From the NCBI RefSeq assembly GCF_001483965.1, contig NZ_CP010796.1:558001-622000 (forward strand): a stretch of DNA of 64,000 nt. Direction: 5' to 3'. Below are positions 7,139-16,812 of the stretch, piece by piece. Numbering within the stretch: position 1 is the stretch's first letter; each line of letters opens with the position of its first letter. Source of the stretch: Carnobacterium sp. CP1 (lineage in GTDB: Bacteria; Bacillota; Bacilli; Lactobacillales; Carnobacteriaceae). The position numbers were made by a program, and so were the translations under genes. The notes below the pieces were generated by a model, which saw only the letters and a program-made list of their open reading frames with translations, did not search any database and was not told the DNA's origin.

Positions 7139-7164
7139 CTTTGGAGATAGAAAAACAAGTAATC

Positions 7165-7286
7165 CTTTAATCCTAGTCCTGTGAGACTAAGAAGGAGCAG
7201 ACACGTATGAGCGAAGACTAGCTAGTTTTTAAAACAGTCAACCTCAGAATGCCCTCTTACTCAATAGGTAAGAGGGCATTTTTTAT
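7165..7286 (+). promoter_or_regulatory. PyrR-dependent attenuator 1, upstream of pyrR
   Basis: The leader holds a PyrR-binding-loop-like segment (AGTCCTGTGAGACT, 7175-7188, followed by AAGAAGGAGCAG), a middle region able to pair alternatively, and a terminator at 7249-7285 (ATGCCCTCTTAC, loop, complement, T-run). In this family UMP-bound PyrR stabilises the anti-antiterminator and so allows termination. Confidence 0.8.
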
Positions 7287-7334: not shown

Positions 7335-7886
<552 letters not shown>

Positions 7887-8167: not shown

Positions 8168-9094
8168 ATGGGTGGAGTCATCGAAAGCATTCAATTAGAA
8201 CATTTTGTTTCAGTCGAAGCATTAACGAACGAAGAAGTACTAGCTCTGATCGGTCGTGCTGGTGAATTTAAAAAAGGAGTTCATCCTTCGTATGACGATA
8301 AGAAATATGCTGTTAACCTGTTTTTTGAAAACAGTACACGGACACATAAAAGTTTTGAAATGGCTGAAAATAAAATGGGAATCAAAGTCATCGATTTTGA
8401 ACCTTCGACAAGCAGTGTAACAAAAGGAGAGAGCTTATACGATACCGTACTGACGATGTCAGCTATTGGAGTAGATGTCGCGGTTATTCGCCACCCATCA
8501 GAGGCTTTCTATTCTGAATTGATCGCTAGTCCTACGATTACCTGTTCAATCATCAATGGCGGCGATGGTGCAGGACAACACCCGAGTCAATGCCTGTTAG
8601 ATTTAATGACGATTTATGAAGAGTTTGGTTATTTTGAAGGTCTAAAAGTTGCAATTGTTGGCGATTTAACTCATTCTCGAGTTGCGCGATCAAACATGCA
8701 GATGTTGAAACGCCTTGGAGCTACACTATACTTCTCCGGTCCGCCTGAATGGTACGATGAATCGTTTGATCAATATGGACAATACGTTCCAATGGATGAC
8801 CTGATCAAAATAGTTGACGTGATGATGTTGCTGCGCATTCAACATGAGCGGCATGAAACGTACGGAAACTTTTCTAAACCTGCTTATCTAACAATGTACG
8901 GCTTAACAGAAAGCAGAGAAAGCAAGATGCTGGACCACGCCATTATTATGCACCCTGCTCCGGTTAACCGCGATGTTGAACTGCAAAGTACTTTACTGGA
9001 ATGTCCACGGGCGCGAATCGTGGCTCAAATGGCTAATGGCGTCTTTACAAGAATGGCCATCTTAGAAGCAGTATTGGCTGGTCAAAAAGGGTAG
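8168..9094 (+). CDS. pyrB: aspartate carbamoyltransferase catalytic subunit
   Basis: Condenses carbamoyl phosphate with aspartate, the first committed step of pyrimidine synthesis. The 308-residue protein keeps the carbamoyl-phosphate motif [12 protein letters not shown], the flexible-loop Ser/Lys region [21 protein letters not shown] and [11 protein letters not shown]. All active-site elements look intact, unlike carA and carB downstream. AAGGGGGA precedes the ATG. Confidence 0.96.
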
Positions 9095-9137: not shown

Positions 9138-10433
9138 ATGACACTATGGATCAAAAATGCAACCACGATAGATCAACAAGGGAATCTTAACTTAACCGAA
9201 CTAGTGATTAAAGAAGACAAGATTGCTGCAATAGGGGATGATGTAGCTTCTTTAATCAAAGGGAAAACAGAACCGGAGAACATCATTGATGCTAAAGGAG
9301 CTTTACTGACTCCGGGTCTGATCGATGTTCATGTTCATTTAAGAGAACCAGGTTTTTCTTACAAAGAAACCATTAAAACAGGTACGGAGGCAGCGGCAAG
9401 AGGCGGATTCACTACCATTTGCGCAATGCCAAACGTAAACCCGGAACCGGATACGCCTGAAAAAATGCTGGCTCTTCAGGAAAAAAATAAAGCGGATGCG
9501 GTTATCAAAGTATTGCAATACGCTCCAATTACTAAAGGGCTGCGCAGCGATCATTTAACCGATCAAAAAGCTTTAATTGCTGCAGGAGCATTTGCCTTCA
9601 CCAATGATGGAGTCGGAGTGCAATCAGCTGGGACCATGTATTTAGCAATGAAAGAAGCCGCTAAAAATAATGTAGCGATCGTGGCCCATACAGAAGATGA
9701 TTCTTTATTGTTTGGCGGCGTGATGCACGAAGGCAAGCGTTCACGTGAACTGGGTTTGCCAGGGATCTTAAACATCACTGAAGCGAGCCAAATTGCACGT
9801 GACGTTTTGATCAGTGAGGCAACTGGAGCGCATTACCACGTTTGTCATGTTTCAACAAAAGAAAGTGTCCGAGTTATCCGCGATGCCAAGAAAGCCGGCA
9901 TCCATGTAACGGCTGAAGTCGCGCCTCATCACTTGATTCTGACAGAAGAGGATATTCCTGGAGATACTAGTCTGTATAAAATGAATCCTCCTTTAAGAAG
10001 CAAAGAAGACCGTGCGGCTTTAATTAAAGGTTTACTTGATGGTACAATTGATATGATCGCTACAGATCATGCACCGCACAGCAAAGAAGAAAAAGAAGGC
10101 AGCATGATTGGATCTCCATTTGGGATCGTCGGAAGCGAAACAGCCTTTTCTTTACTTTATACACACTTGGTTGAAACAGGCATTTTCACATTGAAACAAG
10201 TGGTTGACTGGTTAACCGTTCAACCGGCCAAAATATTCAACTTGGATAGCGGTATTTTAGCGGTTGGCAAACAAGCTGATTTAGCCTTGTTTGATTTAAC
10301 TACTGCCAAAGACATTCGAGAAGAAGACTTTTTGTCGCTGTCAGCCAATACACCTTTTATTGGCTGGAAAGTAAAAGGCACGACTGTTATGACGATCGCA
10401 GATGGAAAGATTGTATATGAGGAGGTAATTTAA
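9138..10433 (+). CDS. pyrC: dihydroorotase
   Basis: Zinc amidohydrolase that cyclises carbamoyl aspartate to dihydroorotate. The 431-residue length and layout fit the class I bacterial type. Metal-ligand motifs are [10 protein letters not shown] (about 60-70), the central His-containing segments VAHTED and YHVCHVST, and the catalytic Asp motif [12 protein letters not shown] (about 311). It lies 43 nt after pyrB and 2 nt before carA. It looks fully functional. Confidence 0.96.
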
Positions 10434-10435
10434 GG

Positions 10436-11539
10436 ATGGATCGTTTACTAATTTTAGAAGACGGCACTATCTTTAAAGGCAAAGGATTCGGTTCTTTGAT
10501 TGATACGATTGGGGAAGTTGTTTTTACAACGGGAATGACCGGCTACCAAGAAACGATAACCGATCCTTCTTACAACGGTCAAATTTTAGTTTTTGCTAAT
10601 CCTTTAGTGGGCAATACCGGCATAAACCGAGATGACTATGAATCCATCGAATCGATTTGTAAAGCAGTTATTGTCAAAGAATTTGCCCGTGTTCCAGCTA
10701 ACTGGCGCAGTCAAATGAACTTGGATGAATTTTTAAAAATCAAAAAAATACCCGGGATTTCGGGTATCGATACGCGGAGACTAACACGTCACATTCGTGA
10801 ATCCGGCATTATGCGCGGTATGTTAATCGACGCTCAAGATGACTTAGTTCATGCGTTTGACCAGTTAAGAGCAACGGTCTTGCCTAGCAACCAGGTATCG
10901 CAAGTCTCGGCTAGCCGTTCTTATGCTAGTCCAGGAGTAGGAAGAAATATCATTGTGATCGACTTTGGTTTAAAACACAGTCTTTTAAAAGAATTAAACA
11001 AACGCAATTGCCATGTTGTCGTTTTACCTTATGATACAACAGGAGAAACCATTTTAAACTTGGCTCCGGACGGGGTCATGTTGAGCAACGGCCCAGGTGA
11101 TCCAAATGATTTGCCGCAAGCTCTTAAAATGGTTCAAGAGTTGCAAGGTACGGTTCCTATTTTCGGGATTGGTCTGGGCCACCAACTGATCGCGCTTGCT
11201 AATGGAGCTAAAATCAGCAAATTGAAAGTAGGTCATCATGGTTTTAATTACGCTGTAAGGGAAGAGGCAACTGGTCGAGTTGATTTCACTTCACAAAACC
11301 ATCGCTTTGCATTAGAAAAAGAAACACTCGATGTTGATCAATGGATCATCACTCATACAGAAATTAAAGACAGCGCTATAGCCGGAATAAAACACCGCTA
11401 CCAGCCTGTTTTCAGCACTTTGTTTCAGCCTAACGCAACACCGGGGCCGCATGACGCTGTTCATCTATTCGATCAGTTTATGGAAATGATCGATGGTTGG
11501 AAGGAGGCAAGAGAGCATGATCAACAAGGCGAAAGCTAA
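10436..11539 (+). CDS. carA: CarA-like carbamoyl-phosphate synthase small subunit, catalytic triad lost
   Basis: By overall sequence this is CarA, 367 residues, with a normal N-terminal half ([30 protein letters not shown]) and a class I glutamine amidotransferase C-terminal half (SNGPGDPND). The amidotransferase centre is changed at every catalytic position. The nucleophile motif GICLGHQ reads GIGLGHQ (Gly246 for Cys). GHRGxNHPV reads GHHGFNYAV (266-274). The His-Glu motif YHPEASPGP reads FQPNATPGP (Gln331, Asn333). It should not hydrolyse glutamine. The frame is intact, AGGAGG lies upstream, and the stop overlaps carB by 23 nt. I call it a likely pseudoenzyme rather than a pseudogene. Confidence 0.85.
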
Positions 11540-14504
11540 AAAAGTTCTAGTGATTGGATCAACTCCAAGCGACAGTGATTCCTCAGCTAATGTGGATTAC
11601 GGAACAGCCCAAATCATTCTCTCTTTAAAAGAGATCGGCTATGAAGTTATTCTGGTTGATTCGAATCCAACCGCATTGGCAACAAATAAAGATAGAGCGG
11701 ATAAAGTTTACATCGAACCTCTGACCGTTGATTTTGTTTCACAAATCATTCGAAAAGAACGGCCAAATGAAATCTTTCCTGTCTTACACAACTCTTTAAG
11801 TTTTTATCTGATGGAAGAGTTGGCTCATTCAGGACTGTTAGAAGAACTGCACATCAAGGTACTGGGAACAAGCCAACAGACCATTCAAAAAATTAAACAG
11901 CCCGAAACTTTTCGGAAATGGATGCAGACCCTCAAAGAACCAACACGAGCAGGACAAGGCGTTTACTCACAGACAGAAGCCTTGGGTTTTGCTGAAAAAG
12001 AAGGCTTTCCGCTGCTTATTCAGTCTCAGACCCCTACTGGCGAATGGGTACAAGAATGGTGTTCTACTAATGAAAAGGTAAAAAAAGTAGCAGCTGCTCA
12101 TTTTCTTTTATCGCCGCACACCCCTATTTTTATTGAAACGGGTCTGACCGGTTATAAATTGATTCAATTTGAAGTATTGCGGGACAAAAAAGATCAGGCT
12201 TTAGTTGTTTCTACGTCAGAGAATTTGAAGACAGATGAATCCGATCAAAAAACTATGATCATGATCACCCCTAGCCAAACATTGACGGATCTTGATTACC
12301 AATTACTCCGTGATGCAGCATTAACGATTGTCCGCGGATTAGAGATCGAAGGAGGATGTACGATCCAGTTCGCTTTTCATCCAAACCGTTTTATGTATTA
12401 TGTGACTAAAATAGATCCTGGTTTTACTCGTTCAACTCTTTTAGTCAGCAAAGCAACAGGGTATCCAATCATCAAATTGTCTGTTAAACTAGCTGCCGGT
12501 TTAACGTTAGATACATTAAAAAATCCGTTTAATGAAACGGCTTATCTCGAATACGAACCTACGTTGGACTACATTACTACCTATATTTCGAATTGGTCTA
12601 ATGGGACATCTGTAAAAAGAAACTCTCCTAAAAAACAAATTACCGGAGAAGCAATGGCTATTGGCCGAACACTTGAAGAATCGATTTTGAAAGCTTTTCG
12701 TTCTTTGGATACAGCAGATGGCGTAACGTTACTGAAAACAGCCACTCACAGTAACGACGAAGAAATAGCAGAGCACCTACTGCATGCTCAGTATGATCAT
12801 CTCGCTTATTTACTCGAAGCTCTTCGCCGCGGATACACGATTGAAGAGTTAAGTGAGGTAACAAAAATCGAGTTGTTTTTCTTAGATAAATTAGCCCATA
12901 TCATTGAGATCGAGCACGAGCTCGAACGTCACCCTAGTGATCTTACTGCATTAAGAAGTGCTAAAGAATATGGATTTTCTGATTCAGTTATTGCTGCACT
13001 ATGGAAAACAACCGCTGACGAAGTAAATAGATTGCGTAATGCACATGATATCGTTCCTGTTTATAAAGCTATTGATAGCTCGGCGGGAGAAATCGCTGCA
13101 CAATCCACATGTTTTTATAGTACGTATGAAGAAGAAAATGAAAGTACGGCAATCGGTAAAAAGTCCATTTTACTTTTAACTGCCAGCACAGGCATGAACG
13201 ATCCAAGAAGAGGATACGATAGCGCTCTTTTACAAGCCATAACGGCTATCCAAGAAGCTGGCTATGAAGCAATCTTATTAAACAGCCATCCAGCATCTCT
13301 TTCAACGGATTTTTCTGTCCAGGCTAAAACGTATTTGGTCCCGTCAACGGTGGAGGATATCGTACAGGTAGTTCAGTTGGAAAAACCTATAGGCGTGATG
13401 GTTCAATTTGGAGGCCCAGAGGCACTTGAATTGTCTAAAGCGTTAACTCCTTTAGAAATCCCTGTCTTGGACGCTGTCCCGTCGTATTTAGTCAGCAAAG
13501 AGGCAGAGAATGACGGGATGATCGAACTTATTCAACCGTTGCTGGCAGAATTGGCTATCCCATATGCTGCACCGGAGAATCAGGCAATGGCTGATGAACA
13601 AATCGAAGTCATCAGTATTTCTGATGGAGAAAGAGTACTATTTCCAGGGTTGATCGAACACATTGGACACCTGAATGGAGTAGGGACAGAGCCCGTGATG
13701 GTTCATCCTACACAAACTCTTTCTGAACAAAAACAGCAGAAAATCAAAGAATATGCCGCTCGTCTAGCACTTGCTTTAAAATGGACGGGCATCACCACTA
13801 TGTATTTCACGATTCAGCAAGAAAACATCCAGTTTCTTAATCTAACACTAGGGACAACTCAAACGATTCCTTTTTTAAGCAAAGCAACGGGTTTCCCTAT
13901 CATTCCGACGGCCGTTCAAGTTCTCTTGGGTAACTCTTTAGCAGCTCAATTAGATTTAAAAGAAAACACACAAACAATAAGCCCCGCCGTTTATGTAAAA
14001 GCCCCTGTTTATTCATTTTCATCAGAACCTGAAATAGACTGGATGGGGGAAGTTATGGGATCTGATCGAACGTTAGGCAAGGCAATATTTAAAACCTTTG
14101 AAGCCGCCCAAGTTCATTTGTCAGAATTTGGTTCTATCCTTTTGCTGCTTTCCGAAAAAGATCAAGATCAAGCCGAAGAATTAACTAGGCGATTTCAGCA
14201 AATAGGATACCGTATGCTAACTACTCAACCATTAAGTCAACAATTAGCTGAAAAAGGTTTAGTAGTGACTGCGCTGGATCCATCTTTTGAGTCTATCGAT
14301 AAAAGCAGTGCAAAAAGAATCAATAAAAAGGAAATTCAATTAGTGATCGACACTAGAGCATCTAAAACGAAAACAGTAAAAGAACAGTTGACCATTCGTC
14401 AAGCAGCGCATGAACAAAATATTCCTCTGCTTACTTCTATTACAACGATTTCAGCTGTATTAAATTTCTTGGAATTGCGCACGTTCACAACAAATCCGAT
14501 TTAA
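11517..14504 (+). CDS. carB: CarB-like carbamoyl-phosphate synthase large subunit, both ATP sites degenerate
   Basis: A 995-residue CarB homologue (usual about 1060-1070) in one open frame. The start is the ATG 11 nt after GGAGG inside carA. Scaffold motifs persist: [49 protein letters not shown]. Functional motifs do not. First half: GSGPIIIGQ reads GSTPSDSDS (14-22), GGQT reads HNSL (91-94), the phosphate-loop Arg is Gln169 and the glycine loop is gone, and ExNPR reads KIDPG (298-302). Second half: ExNPR reads NLTLG (775-779) and about 70 residues of the ATP-grasp domain seem deleted near residue 690. The C-terminal allosteric-type domain remains. Catalysis is not expected. Confidence 0.85.
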
Positions 14505-14546
14505 GTTAGGAATCACATCAATGTAATCAATTTTTGGAGGGATCAT

Positions 14547-15476
14547 ATGAGTCGTTTAACAGTAACATTACCGGGATTGGATTTAAAAAATCCTATTATG
14601 CCGGCCAGCGGAACGTTTGGCTTTGGCGATCTATACATGGATCGCTACGATTATAGTGTCTTAGGAGCTCTGATCATCAAATCAACAACTGCAGAGCCGC
14701 GGATAGGAAACGCTGAGCCACGTTACCATCATTTAGAAAATGGAGTATTAAACGCAGTCGGTTTACGAAACCCAGGTGTAGATGTAATCGTAAATGAAAA
14801 ATTACCAGCGTTAGAAAAATTTGACACGCCTATTATCGCAAGTGTAGCAGGAACGACGATTTCCGATTATGTAGCGGTAACAAAAAAACTCTGTCACTCA
14901 CCAATTGTGAAAGCTCTTGAAATCAATCTGTCTTGTCCAAATGTAGCAGATGGAGGATTAACATTCGGTTCAAATCCTGAAGCTGTTTATCAGATGACAA
15001 AAGCAGTCAAATCAGTGGCTACTGTTCCAATTTATGTTAAATTAACACCTAATGTAACGGATATTACTGAAATTGCCAAAGCTGCTGAAGCAGGCGGAGC
15101 AGATGGCATCAGTATGATCAATACGCTTTTAGGAATGAGCATCGATTTAAAAACTAAACAGCCTTTTTTAGCCAATAAAACAGGAGGTTTATCAGGTTCA
15201 GCTATAAGCCCCATTGCTGTTCGAATGGTTTACCAAGTTTCTCGGGCTGTATCGATTCCAGTCATTGGGATGGGAGGCATCTCGACAGTCGATGATGTTC
15301 TTGAGATGCTGATGGCAGGTGCTAGCGCAGTAGCCATAGGGACAGCTAATTATAACAACCCTATGATTTGTAAAGAATTGATTGAAGCTTTACCAGATCG
15401 AATGGATGAACTAGGAATTACATCTATTGAGTCCTTGATCAAAGAAGTAAAGGCAGGCCAGAATAGTGAATACTAA
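14547..15476 (+). CDS. pyrD: dihydroorotate dehydrogenase, class 1B type
   Basis: FMN enzyme that oxidises dihydroorotate to orotate. The 309-residue protein aligns by eye with the Bacillus class 1B enzyme: [22 protein letters not shown], the catalytic-Cys motif EINLSCPNV (about 125-133), NKTGGLSG and IPVIGMGGI. Class 1B enzymes normally pair with the iron-sulfur/FAD subunit PyrK, whose gene would sit directly upstream; it is absent here. TTGGAGGG precedes the ATG. The gene overlaps pyrF by 11 nt. Confidence 0.94.
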
Positions 15477-16182
15477 ACCAATTATTGCGTTAGATTTTTC
15501 AACAAGTGAAGAGATAAAACAGTTTTTAAGTCATTTTAAAGATGAATCATTATTTGTCAAAGTAGGGATGGAGCTCTATTATCAAAACGGTCCTGAAATC
15601 GTTAAGTACATGAAAGAACTAGGACATGAGATTTTTTTAGATTTGAAATTGCATGATATACCGAACACAGTCAAGCGTTCAATGAAAGGTTTGGCAGCTT
15701 TGGATATCGATATGATCAATGTGCATGCAGCTGGAGGAAGTGAAATGATGGAAGCTGCAATGGATGGTATTCTTGCAGGCACTCCAGCCGGCAGTACGCG
15801 GCCGGATTTAATTGCCGTCACTCAACTGACTTCTACTACACCCGAAGCTATGCGGAGAGAACAGCTGATCGAAGTACCTTTATTGCAAAGCGTTATCCAT
15901 TACGCTCAATTGACTCAAACAGCCGGATTGGATGGAGTTGTTTGCTCTGCGTTAGAAGCACGGCTAATCAAAAAAAATACCGCTTCAGACTTTTTATGTG
16001 TCACACCTGGAATCCGACCTAGCGGCGAAGAAAAAGGCGATCAGAAACGGGTCGCTACACCAGCATCAGCTTATGAAGAAGGGGCCAGCCACATCGTGGT
16101 CGGGCGTCCCATTACATTGGCCCAAGATCCCGTAGCAGCTTATCACTTAATCAAAAATCAATGGAACGGAGACAACCATTAA
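15466..16182 (+). CDS. pyrF: orotidine 5'-phosphate decarboxylase
   Basis: Decarboxylates OMP to UMP, the last step of the pathway. The 238-residue protein carries the family motif [14 protein letters not shown] with the Asp-Lys-Asp charge network (about 58-71), plus VTPGIRPSG and HIVVGRPIT for phosphate binding. The start is GTG inside the end of pyrD, an 11-nt overlap that suggests translational coupling. The stop abuts the pyrE ATG. Confidence 0.96.
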
Positions 16183-16812
16183 ATGACAATCGAAAAAACA
16201 ATTGCAAAGCACTTATTAGATATTAAAGCAGTAAGTTTAAACCCAAATAATCCCTTTACTTGGGCAAGTGGAATGAAAAGCCCAATTTATTGCGATAACC
16301 GCATTACAATGGGGTATCCGGCGGTTAGAAAAGAAATCGCCCAAGATATGGCTGATTTGATTAGAGAAAATTACCCTTCCGTAGAAGTCATTGCCGGTAC
16401 CGCTACAGCTGGAATTCCGCATGCGGCGTGGGTCGCTGAAGTATTGGATTTGCCTATGGTTTACATACGCAGTAAAGCAAAAGAACATGGTAAAGGCAAT
16501 CAAATAGAAGGACGGTTAGTACCCGGTCAGAAAATGGTCGTGATCGAAGACTTGATCTCAACTGGCGGCAGTGTCATTGATGCTTGTGGAGCAGCCGCTA
16601 AAGAAGGGGCAGAGATTCTTGGAGTAGCTGCTATTTTCACTTATGAATTGCCAAAAGGATTAGAAAATTTCAAAAAACACGAAATTGCTTTAAAAACATT
16701 AACCAACTATACAACTTTAATTGAAGTTGCTTTAGAAACGAAAGCTATTGAACAAGAAGATGTCAGCCTTTTAAAACAGTGGAAAAAAGATCCAGTGAAT
16801 TGGAAAAAATAA
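16183..16812 (+). CDS. pyrE: orotate phosphoribosyltransferase
   Basis: Joins orotate and PRPP to make OMP. The 209-residue protein has the orotate loop region [21 protein letters not shown] near the N-terminus and the PRPP motif [16 protein letters not shown] (about 118-133). The ATG directly follows the pyrF stop. It is the last gene of the operon; no strong terminator sits immediately after it, but one occurs at 17117-17152. Confidence 0.96.

Follow-up and report, generated by a model that had tools for sequence, protein, structure and literature searches.

What keeps a carbamoyl phosphate synthetase (CPSase) in a pyrimidine operon once the residues for its catalysis are gone? The question is raised by the pyrimidine operon of Carnobacterium sp. 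CP1 (NZ_CP010796.1), contained in the 64,000-nt stretch of DNA analyzed here (the window). Its gene order is pyrR, pyrB, pyrC, carA, carB, pyrD, pyrF, pyrE, and a PyrR attenuator RNA 5' of pyrR indicates that the operon is still PyrR controlled. The features concerned are the following (window positions, strand).

7160 to 7286, +: PyrR-binding attenuator RNA, upstream of pyrR (RF00515, 56.6 bits)
7341 to 7886, +: pyrR
8168 to 9094, +: pyrB, aspartate carbamoyltransferase, retaining the motifs STRT, HPxQ, RxQxER, and HPAP
9138 to 10433, +: pyrC, dihydroorotase
10436 to 11539, +: pseudo-carA, glutaminase subunit of 367 aa, with Cys269 changed to Gly and His353 to Gln
11162 to 11185, +: CarA nucleophile-elbow motif FGIGLGHQ (canonical FGICLGHQ)
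11420 to 11449, +: CarA motif with the canonical form xFHPEAxPGP, His353 and Glu355 lost
11517 to 14504, +: pseudo-carB, CPSase large subunit of 995 aa; lost are the ATP-grasp sites of both halves and the sites for UMP/IMP and ornithine
12408 to 12422, +: CarB first ATP-grasp metal motif, KIDPG (canonical ExNPR)
13839 to 13853, +: CarB second ATP-grasp metal motif, NLTLG (canonical ExNPR)
14547 to 15476, +: pyrD, class 1B-like, in an operon without pyrK
15466 to 16182, +: pyrF
16183 to 16812, +: pyrE

The 3' end of carA overlaps the start of carB by 23 bases, and the carB frame (11493/11517 to 14504, plus strand) is open throughout, its 995 aa being counted from the ATG at 11517. The absence of pyrK between carB and pyrD (window 14504 to 14547) is common to the Carnobacterium genus and genus g3, and the window PyrD scores as class 1B-like although pyrK is absent.

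Residue roles in CarA and CarB are those of the E. coli enzyme, except for T977, K993, and T1042. The roles of these three CarB residues follow published work (PMC6245113). The sequence-only reading had described a CarB with both ATP-grasp sites lost in an open frame, and comparison residue by residue confirms it, with every motif exactly where it had been placed: GSTPSDSDS (14 to 22), HNSL (91 to 94), Gln169, KIDPG (298 to 302), and NLTLG (775 to 779), together with the scaffold motifs GEAMAIGRT (377 to 385) and FLSKATG (786 to 792). Among metal and catalytic residues, the first half carries R129P, R169Q, E299K, N301D, and R303G, while in the second half R715 and R754 are deleted and E841N, N843T, and R845G are found. 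A protein about 70 residues short in the nucleotide-binding subdomain of the second half had also been reported; in all, 78 residues are deleted compared to a sister-genus CarB, of which 54 fall in the second ATP-grasp domain (E. coli positions 690 to 743) and the rest elsewhere, at E. coli positions 367 to 369, 754 to 757, and 900 to 907 and at the N terminus. What fails for this protein is the statement that only functional motifs were lost: it has lost 220 of the 430 positions that are invariant in the controls, among them 7 of the 9 effector positions of the UMP/IMP and ornithine sites. Losses hit 10 of 11 catalytic, metal, or phosphate columns versus 193 of 398 other control-invariant columns (p=0.005), and the best-kept part is the oligomerization domain (29/39, p=0.0006).

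Is the protein still a CarB? By synteny, tree position, and the order of its domains (preATP-grasp, ATP-grasp, oligomerization, second half, MGS), it is an orthologue, with Pfam matches to D1, D2, D3, and MGS; judged by the metal ligands and catalytic residues of its two ATP-grasp sites, it is no longer a CarB. An AlphaFold model, which served for fold confirmation only, has a modest pLDDT of 64.6, and its top fold matches are CPSase chains (1c30_A, E value 9.7e-65). The window pair resembles canonical CarAB (E. coli 1JDB/1C30/1BXR; TIGR01368/TIGR01369; EC 6.3.5.5) in orthology, synteny, domain order, and best fold match but differs from it in lacking key residues of all three active sites; the window species adds to this a deletion of 54 residues in the second ATP-grasp domain and, alone among the four species, the loss of the effector sites.

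The third of these sites lies in CarA, whose changes the sequence-only reading had missed. The window CarA keeps 109 of 128 control-invariant positions, but the nucleophile Cys269 is Gly and His353 is Gln; without the catalytic Cys and His353, the glutaminase site is predicted to be dead as well. The Cys269/His353 pair of class I glutaminases is also absent from three congeners, which have Gly269 and Asn353. As judged from the residues, then, the loss is larger than first described, reaching both subunits, all three active sites, and the genus as a whole. Since neither ATP-grasp site retains its catalytic residues, the pair would be unable to make carbamoyl phosphate.

Could it still do so poorly, through replacements that we fail to recognize? 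NCBIfam PRK05294 accepts the window CarB (698.6, cut-off 599), and both CarA models accept CarA (TIGR01368, 424.5 versus 307; NF009475, 463.7 versus 221), meaning that annotation can easily overlook the loss. However, the stricter TIGR01369 rejects CarB (691 bits, cut-off 1027), and the pair has jointly lost the metal-binding residues of its two ATP sites, the catalytic Arg set of each, and the Cys/His of the glutaminase, which makes residual catalysis highly improbable. Nor does another CPSase stand in for it: profile searches of the whole window genome found no second CPSase and, for TIGR01369, no match above the cut-off, and the other weak matches are shorter ATP-grasp (carboxylase-like) proteins, which rules out a second active CPSase there. 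In each of the four genomes with such a pair, its CarB is the sole CPSase.

A frameshift or assembly artefact was ruled out by the single open frame, the two-contig genome, and equal losses in three other species. Horizontal acquisition of a distant CarB was also rejected, since the gene is syntenic and clusters with its congeners in a free tree (support 80), and since the congeners have R129P and CarA C269G in common with it. A genome-contig search with the window CarB returned no close relatives, and one with a congener CarB returned, apart from ordinary CarBs, a single named congener, the MAG Carnobacterium sp. HKST-UBA02; plasmids gave no match.

How far does the loss extend, and when did it happen? 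The genus sample comprises five genomes: the window species and G001, G002, G003, and G004. In G001, G002, and G004, carA-carB occupies the same position in the pyr operon as in the window, and their CarB proteins (1,056 to 1,059 aa, 78 to 90% mutual identity) all have R129, R169, E299, R303, R754, E841, N843, and R845 replaced. The losses common to all four species are CarB R129, R169, E299, R303, E841, N843, and R845 and CarA C269 and H353; at R754, the three congeners have Gln, and the window protein has a deletion. The positions lost in the genus are canonical in E. coli (position 754 being His), two Bacillaceae, and six genomes of two sister genera. In the three congeners, 9 of 11 catalytic, metal, or phosphate columns are lost compared to 116 of 398 other control-invariant columns (p=0.0006), an excess indicating that the pattern is not due to chance. 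Effector and ornithine positions go the other way (0/9 versus 116/398 lost, p=0.047), and the allosteric domain keeps 19 of 20 invariant columns versus 283 of 410 (p=0.007). As far as sequence comparison alone can tell, all nine effector contacts are kept in the congeners, whereas seven are lost in the window. The description of a protein that has lost only its functional motifs fits the congeners better than the window CarB.

CarB R129P and CarA C269G are common to all four pairs, suggesting that inactivation began before the radiation of the genus. Other CarB losses differ between the lineages (R169M versus R169Q, E299G versus E299K, and Q285R in the congeners only), suggesting that dismantling went on separately. 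R129P and C269G would have come first, and loss or replacement of the other catalytic residues in the two ATP-grasp sites would have followed, partly independently. The fifth genome, G003, has the same operon, but carAB is cleanly absent between pyrC and pyrD, and pyrB is frameshifted (L091:8050-10460). Its identity to the window is 72 to 76% up to pyrC and 88 to 90% from pyrD onward, and this jump right past the carAB deletion points to a recombination junction there. In G002 and G004, the operon pyrB is missing and an unlinked pyrB lies elsewhere in the genome, in G002 within a PyrB-PyrI-PyrK-PyrD cluster (L090:5738-8807). Both CarB and PyrB are absent from the related genera g4 and g6.

Are the retained genes under selection, or are they simply decaying? 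For the G002-G004 pair, with unsaturated synonymous sites (dS about 0.5), carB has a dN/dS of 0.10 and carA one of 0.07, compared to 0.06 to 0.135 for pyrC, pyrD, pyrE, and pyrF (pyrC, 0.135; pyrE, 0.09; pyrD, 0.06). Branch-class codon models put the ω of carB at 0.027 for live lineages, 0.074 for the catalytically deficient congener clade, and 0.133 for the window branch, and ω=1 is rejected for both the clade (2ΔlnL, 1,033) and the window branch (59.7). For carA, ω is 0.049 in live lineages, 0.049 in the congener clade, and 0.042 on the window branch, so that this CarA is as constrained as a live one; in the congeners, ω=1 is rejected with 2ΔlnL above 400 for both genes. Outside G002-G004, synonymous sites are near saturation, which makes branch dN/dS values, including that of the window branch, rough, and the comparison of such pairs covers four sequences. 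The sequence-only reading had proposed a pseudoenzyme under selection. Codon-level tests across the genus show purifying selection (congener dN/dS, 0.05 to 0.10; ω=1 rejected), and even the window carB branch (ω, 0.133) does not show random substitution with dN/dS near 1. The proposal holds well for CarA and for the congener proteins; it is also true of the window CarB, but there the constraint has loosened.

This loosening is visible in branch lengths. The window CarB protein branch measures 1.44 substitutions/site, while those of the other window pyr proteins are 0.09 to 0.18, that of the window CarA is 0.275, and the CarB tips of the congeners, after a fast stem, are 0.04 to 0.07; the window CarB has therefore evolved about tenfold faster than its operon neighbors. 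However, neither carA nor carB has a stop or frameshift in any of the four species, across dS values of 0.4 to more than 2. Neutral simulation of the window carB, started from a sister-genus carB instead of a reconstructed ancestor, accumulated about 74 stops at 43% identity and 43 at 60%, and none was observed. Mismatches in the window CarB are also conservative, with a mean BLOSUM62 score of -0.10 versus -0.68 ± 0.07 under neutrality and a hydropathy correlation of 0.51 versus 0.24 ± 0.04. The lack of stops and the conservative mismatches indicate that the protein, and not the frame alone, was kept through most of the branch, and both disfavor a neutral pseudogene.

The same data bear on two rival explanations. 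Because carAB lies in mid-operon, selection might act against nonsense mutations to spare pyrDFE while the protein itself has no function, and the clean deletion in G003 was indeed tolerated. Such an effect predicts neutral missense change, but residue class and hydropathy are conserved far beyond neutral, retention differs between domains, and ω is below 0.1 in the congeners; of all the readings considered, we find this one the hardest to credit. A second explanation is slow decay, in which arginine breakdown made catalysis dispensable, the window species is well advanced, and the G003 deletion marks the end point. The lost carAB and broken pyrB of G003, the absence of CarB and PyrB from g4 and g6, the tenfold-longer window carB branch, and the missing effector sites of the window CarB are all in its favor. 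Against it stand the low dN/dS of the congeners with ω=1 rejected for both genes, the intact frames in four species, the fold-conserving substitutions of the window CarB, and the constraint on the window CarA, so that decay is an unlikely account, though the one we would consider first among these rivals.

Another question is where the genus obtains carbamoyl phosphate. The carbamoyl-phosphate motifs of the window PyrB (STRT, HPxQ, RxQxER, and HPAP) are intact, indicating that PyrB still needs this substrate, and arcA, arcB, and arcC are present in all five species of the genus. Together, the intact motifs of the window PyrB and the presence of arcABC throughout the genus sample make arginine to citrulline to carbamoyl phosphate the simplest supply, and arcABC is the likely source in the genus. 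The arginine deiminase system would feed PyrB through ArcB, which would convert citrulline and Pi to ornithine and carbamoyl phosphate, with or without ArcC. Sister genera whose CarAB is live have arcABC-type genes as well, so these genes are not diagnostic. Genetic proof that pyrimidine carbamoyl phosphate can come from arginine exists for Thermococcus kodakarensis, where ArcB, and not ArcC, mattered (PMC13260591). The route there (ArcE/ArcB), with phosphorolysis of citrulline by ArcB feeding PyrB, is like the one proposed here; T. kodakarensis has no CPS homologue left, whereas Carnobacterium retains an apparently dead one in its operon. The window genome also encodes, within an allantoin-type cluster (L024:7078-8880; C1, about 813.1 to 814.9 kb), a 600-aa ORF in which an N-terminal domain is followed by a fused second carbamate kinase.

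If catalysis is gone, what could the pair be doing? One idea is that the scaffold is not dead but has acquired new chemistry. In all three congeners, N843 and R845 are both His (VHFHASR), forming an HxH motif (L015/L016/L017) adjoining the kept His788 and Gln829, a candidate new metal site; the nucleotide and ribose contacts E215, G241, H243, E761, H788, and Q829 are kept, and purifying selection is strong. However, the window orthologue has none of these residues, the CarA glutaminase is gone too, and three CarB sequences from one clade say little about a new site, leaving repurposing improbable.

We rather favor, as the probable explanation, a two-subunit pseudoenzyme kept for a noncatalytic allosteric or structural role and loosening in the window lineage. 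Loss of catalytic residues combined with purifying selection, the mark of a pseudoenzyme retained by selection, is found in these orthologues, most strongly in G001, G002, and G004. After inactivation, the CarA/CarB assembly would have been retained in the pyrimidine operon as a scaffold or sensor. In the congeners, it would most likely be an effector-binding (UMP/IMP and ornithine) structural partner of downstream enzymes, tuning or holding them; in the window species, where the effector site is gone and CarB is loosening, constraint would act mainly on CarA and the CarB oligomerization domain. A more specific version, which we offer tentatively, is that a pseudo-CPSase dead at the glutaminase and at the bicarbonate- and carbamate-phosphorylating sites could be a UMP/IMP/ornithine-sensing hub in an arginine-fed genus, with the sensor gone in the window species, where CarA and the CarB oligomerization domain would be left to serve in assembly. 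Several observations constrain such a role. G003, without carAB and with pyrB broken, means that at least one congener can do without the pair. Since the effector residues are gone in the window CarB, a single function cannot explain the four species equally well. Because an unlinked copy has replaced the operon pyrB in G002 and G004, a scaffold dedicated to the original PyrB is unlikely there, and any partner was probably not that PyrB alone. The joint loss of carAB and pyrB in G003 fits a link between them without proving it.

Partial parallels exist in other systems. Genus g71, from another Lactobacillales family, has CarA C269A in three of three species (G279, G310, and G418, at L120:6781-11042, L121:8958-13297, and L154), with His353 changed to Gln in the two pairs aligned and with canonical CarB motifs. 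This enzyme may be a bacterial counterpart of CPS I, a synthetase that has lost the glutaminase alone and would run on ammonia only. Mammalian CPS1 is an ammonia-dependent synthetase. Both retain a dead glutaminase domain or subunit, as Carnobacterium appears to do, but their synthetase half is intact, whereas that of the Carnobacterium pair is predicted to be dead. Two further genomes have altered extra copies: G240 encodes an extra CarA without the Cys and a CarB of which the first 643 aa are left, adjoining pyrFE (L119:8072-11111), and G409 likewise carries an additional CarA that lacks the Cys and contains stops (L125). They were not counted as a second case, given the intact CarA of G240 at L148 and the stops of the G409 copy. 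In Pseudomonas aeruginosa, an inactive dihydroorotase chain (pDHO) is required for ATCase assembly and activity (PMC7053772). This too is a catalytically dead pyrimidine-pathway enzyme that is retained; it differs in being another enzyme with a proven partner, while in Carnobacterium two subunits with three putatively dead sites would play a role suggested by conservation. The open-access literature searched contained neither a description of a pseudo-CPSase, weak evidence as absence there is, nor work on a Carnobacterium CPSase.

CPSase is among the most conserved enzymes with multiple active sites. A genus that retains it with three sites gone would mean that catalysis is separable from its structural and allosteric roles, making those roles testable. 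The intact pairs of the sister genera, g71 with an apparently dead CarA and a live CarB, the Carnobacterium pairs, and the deletion in G003 form a graded series in the dismantling of a channeled enzyme. For genome interpretation, annotation by family models would call the first pyrimidine step present where the catalytic residues say that it is absent. Finally, although no database annotation points to one, selection in most species of the genus suggests a noncatalytic job for this maintained CPSase.
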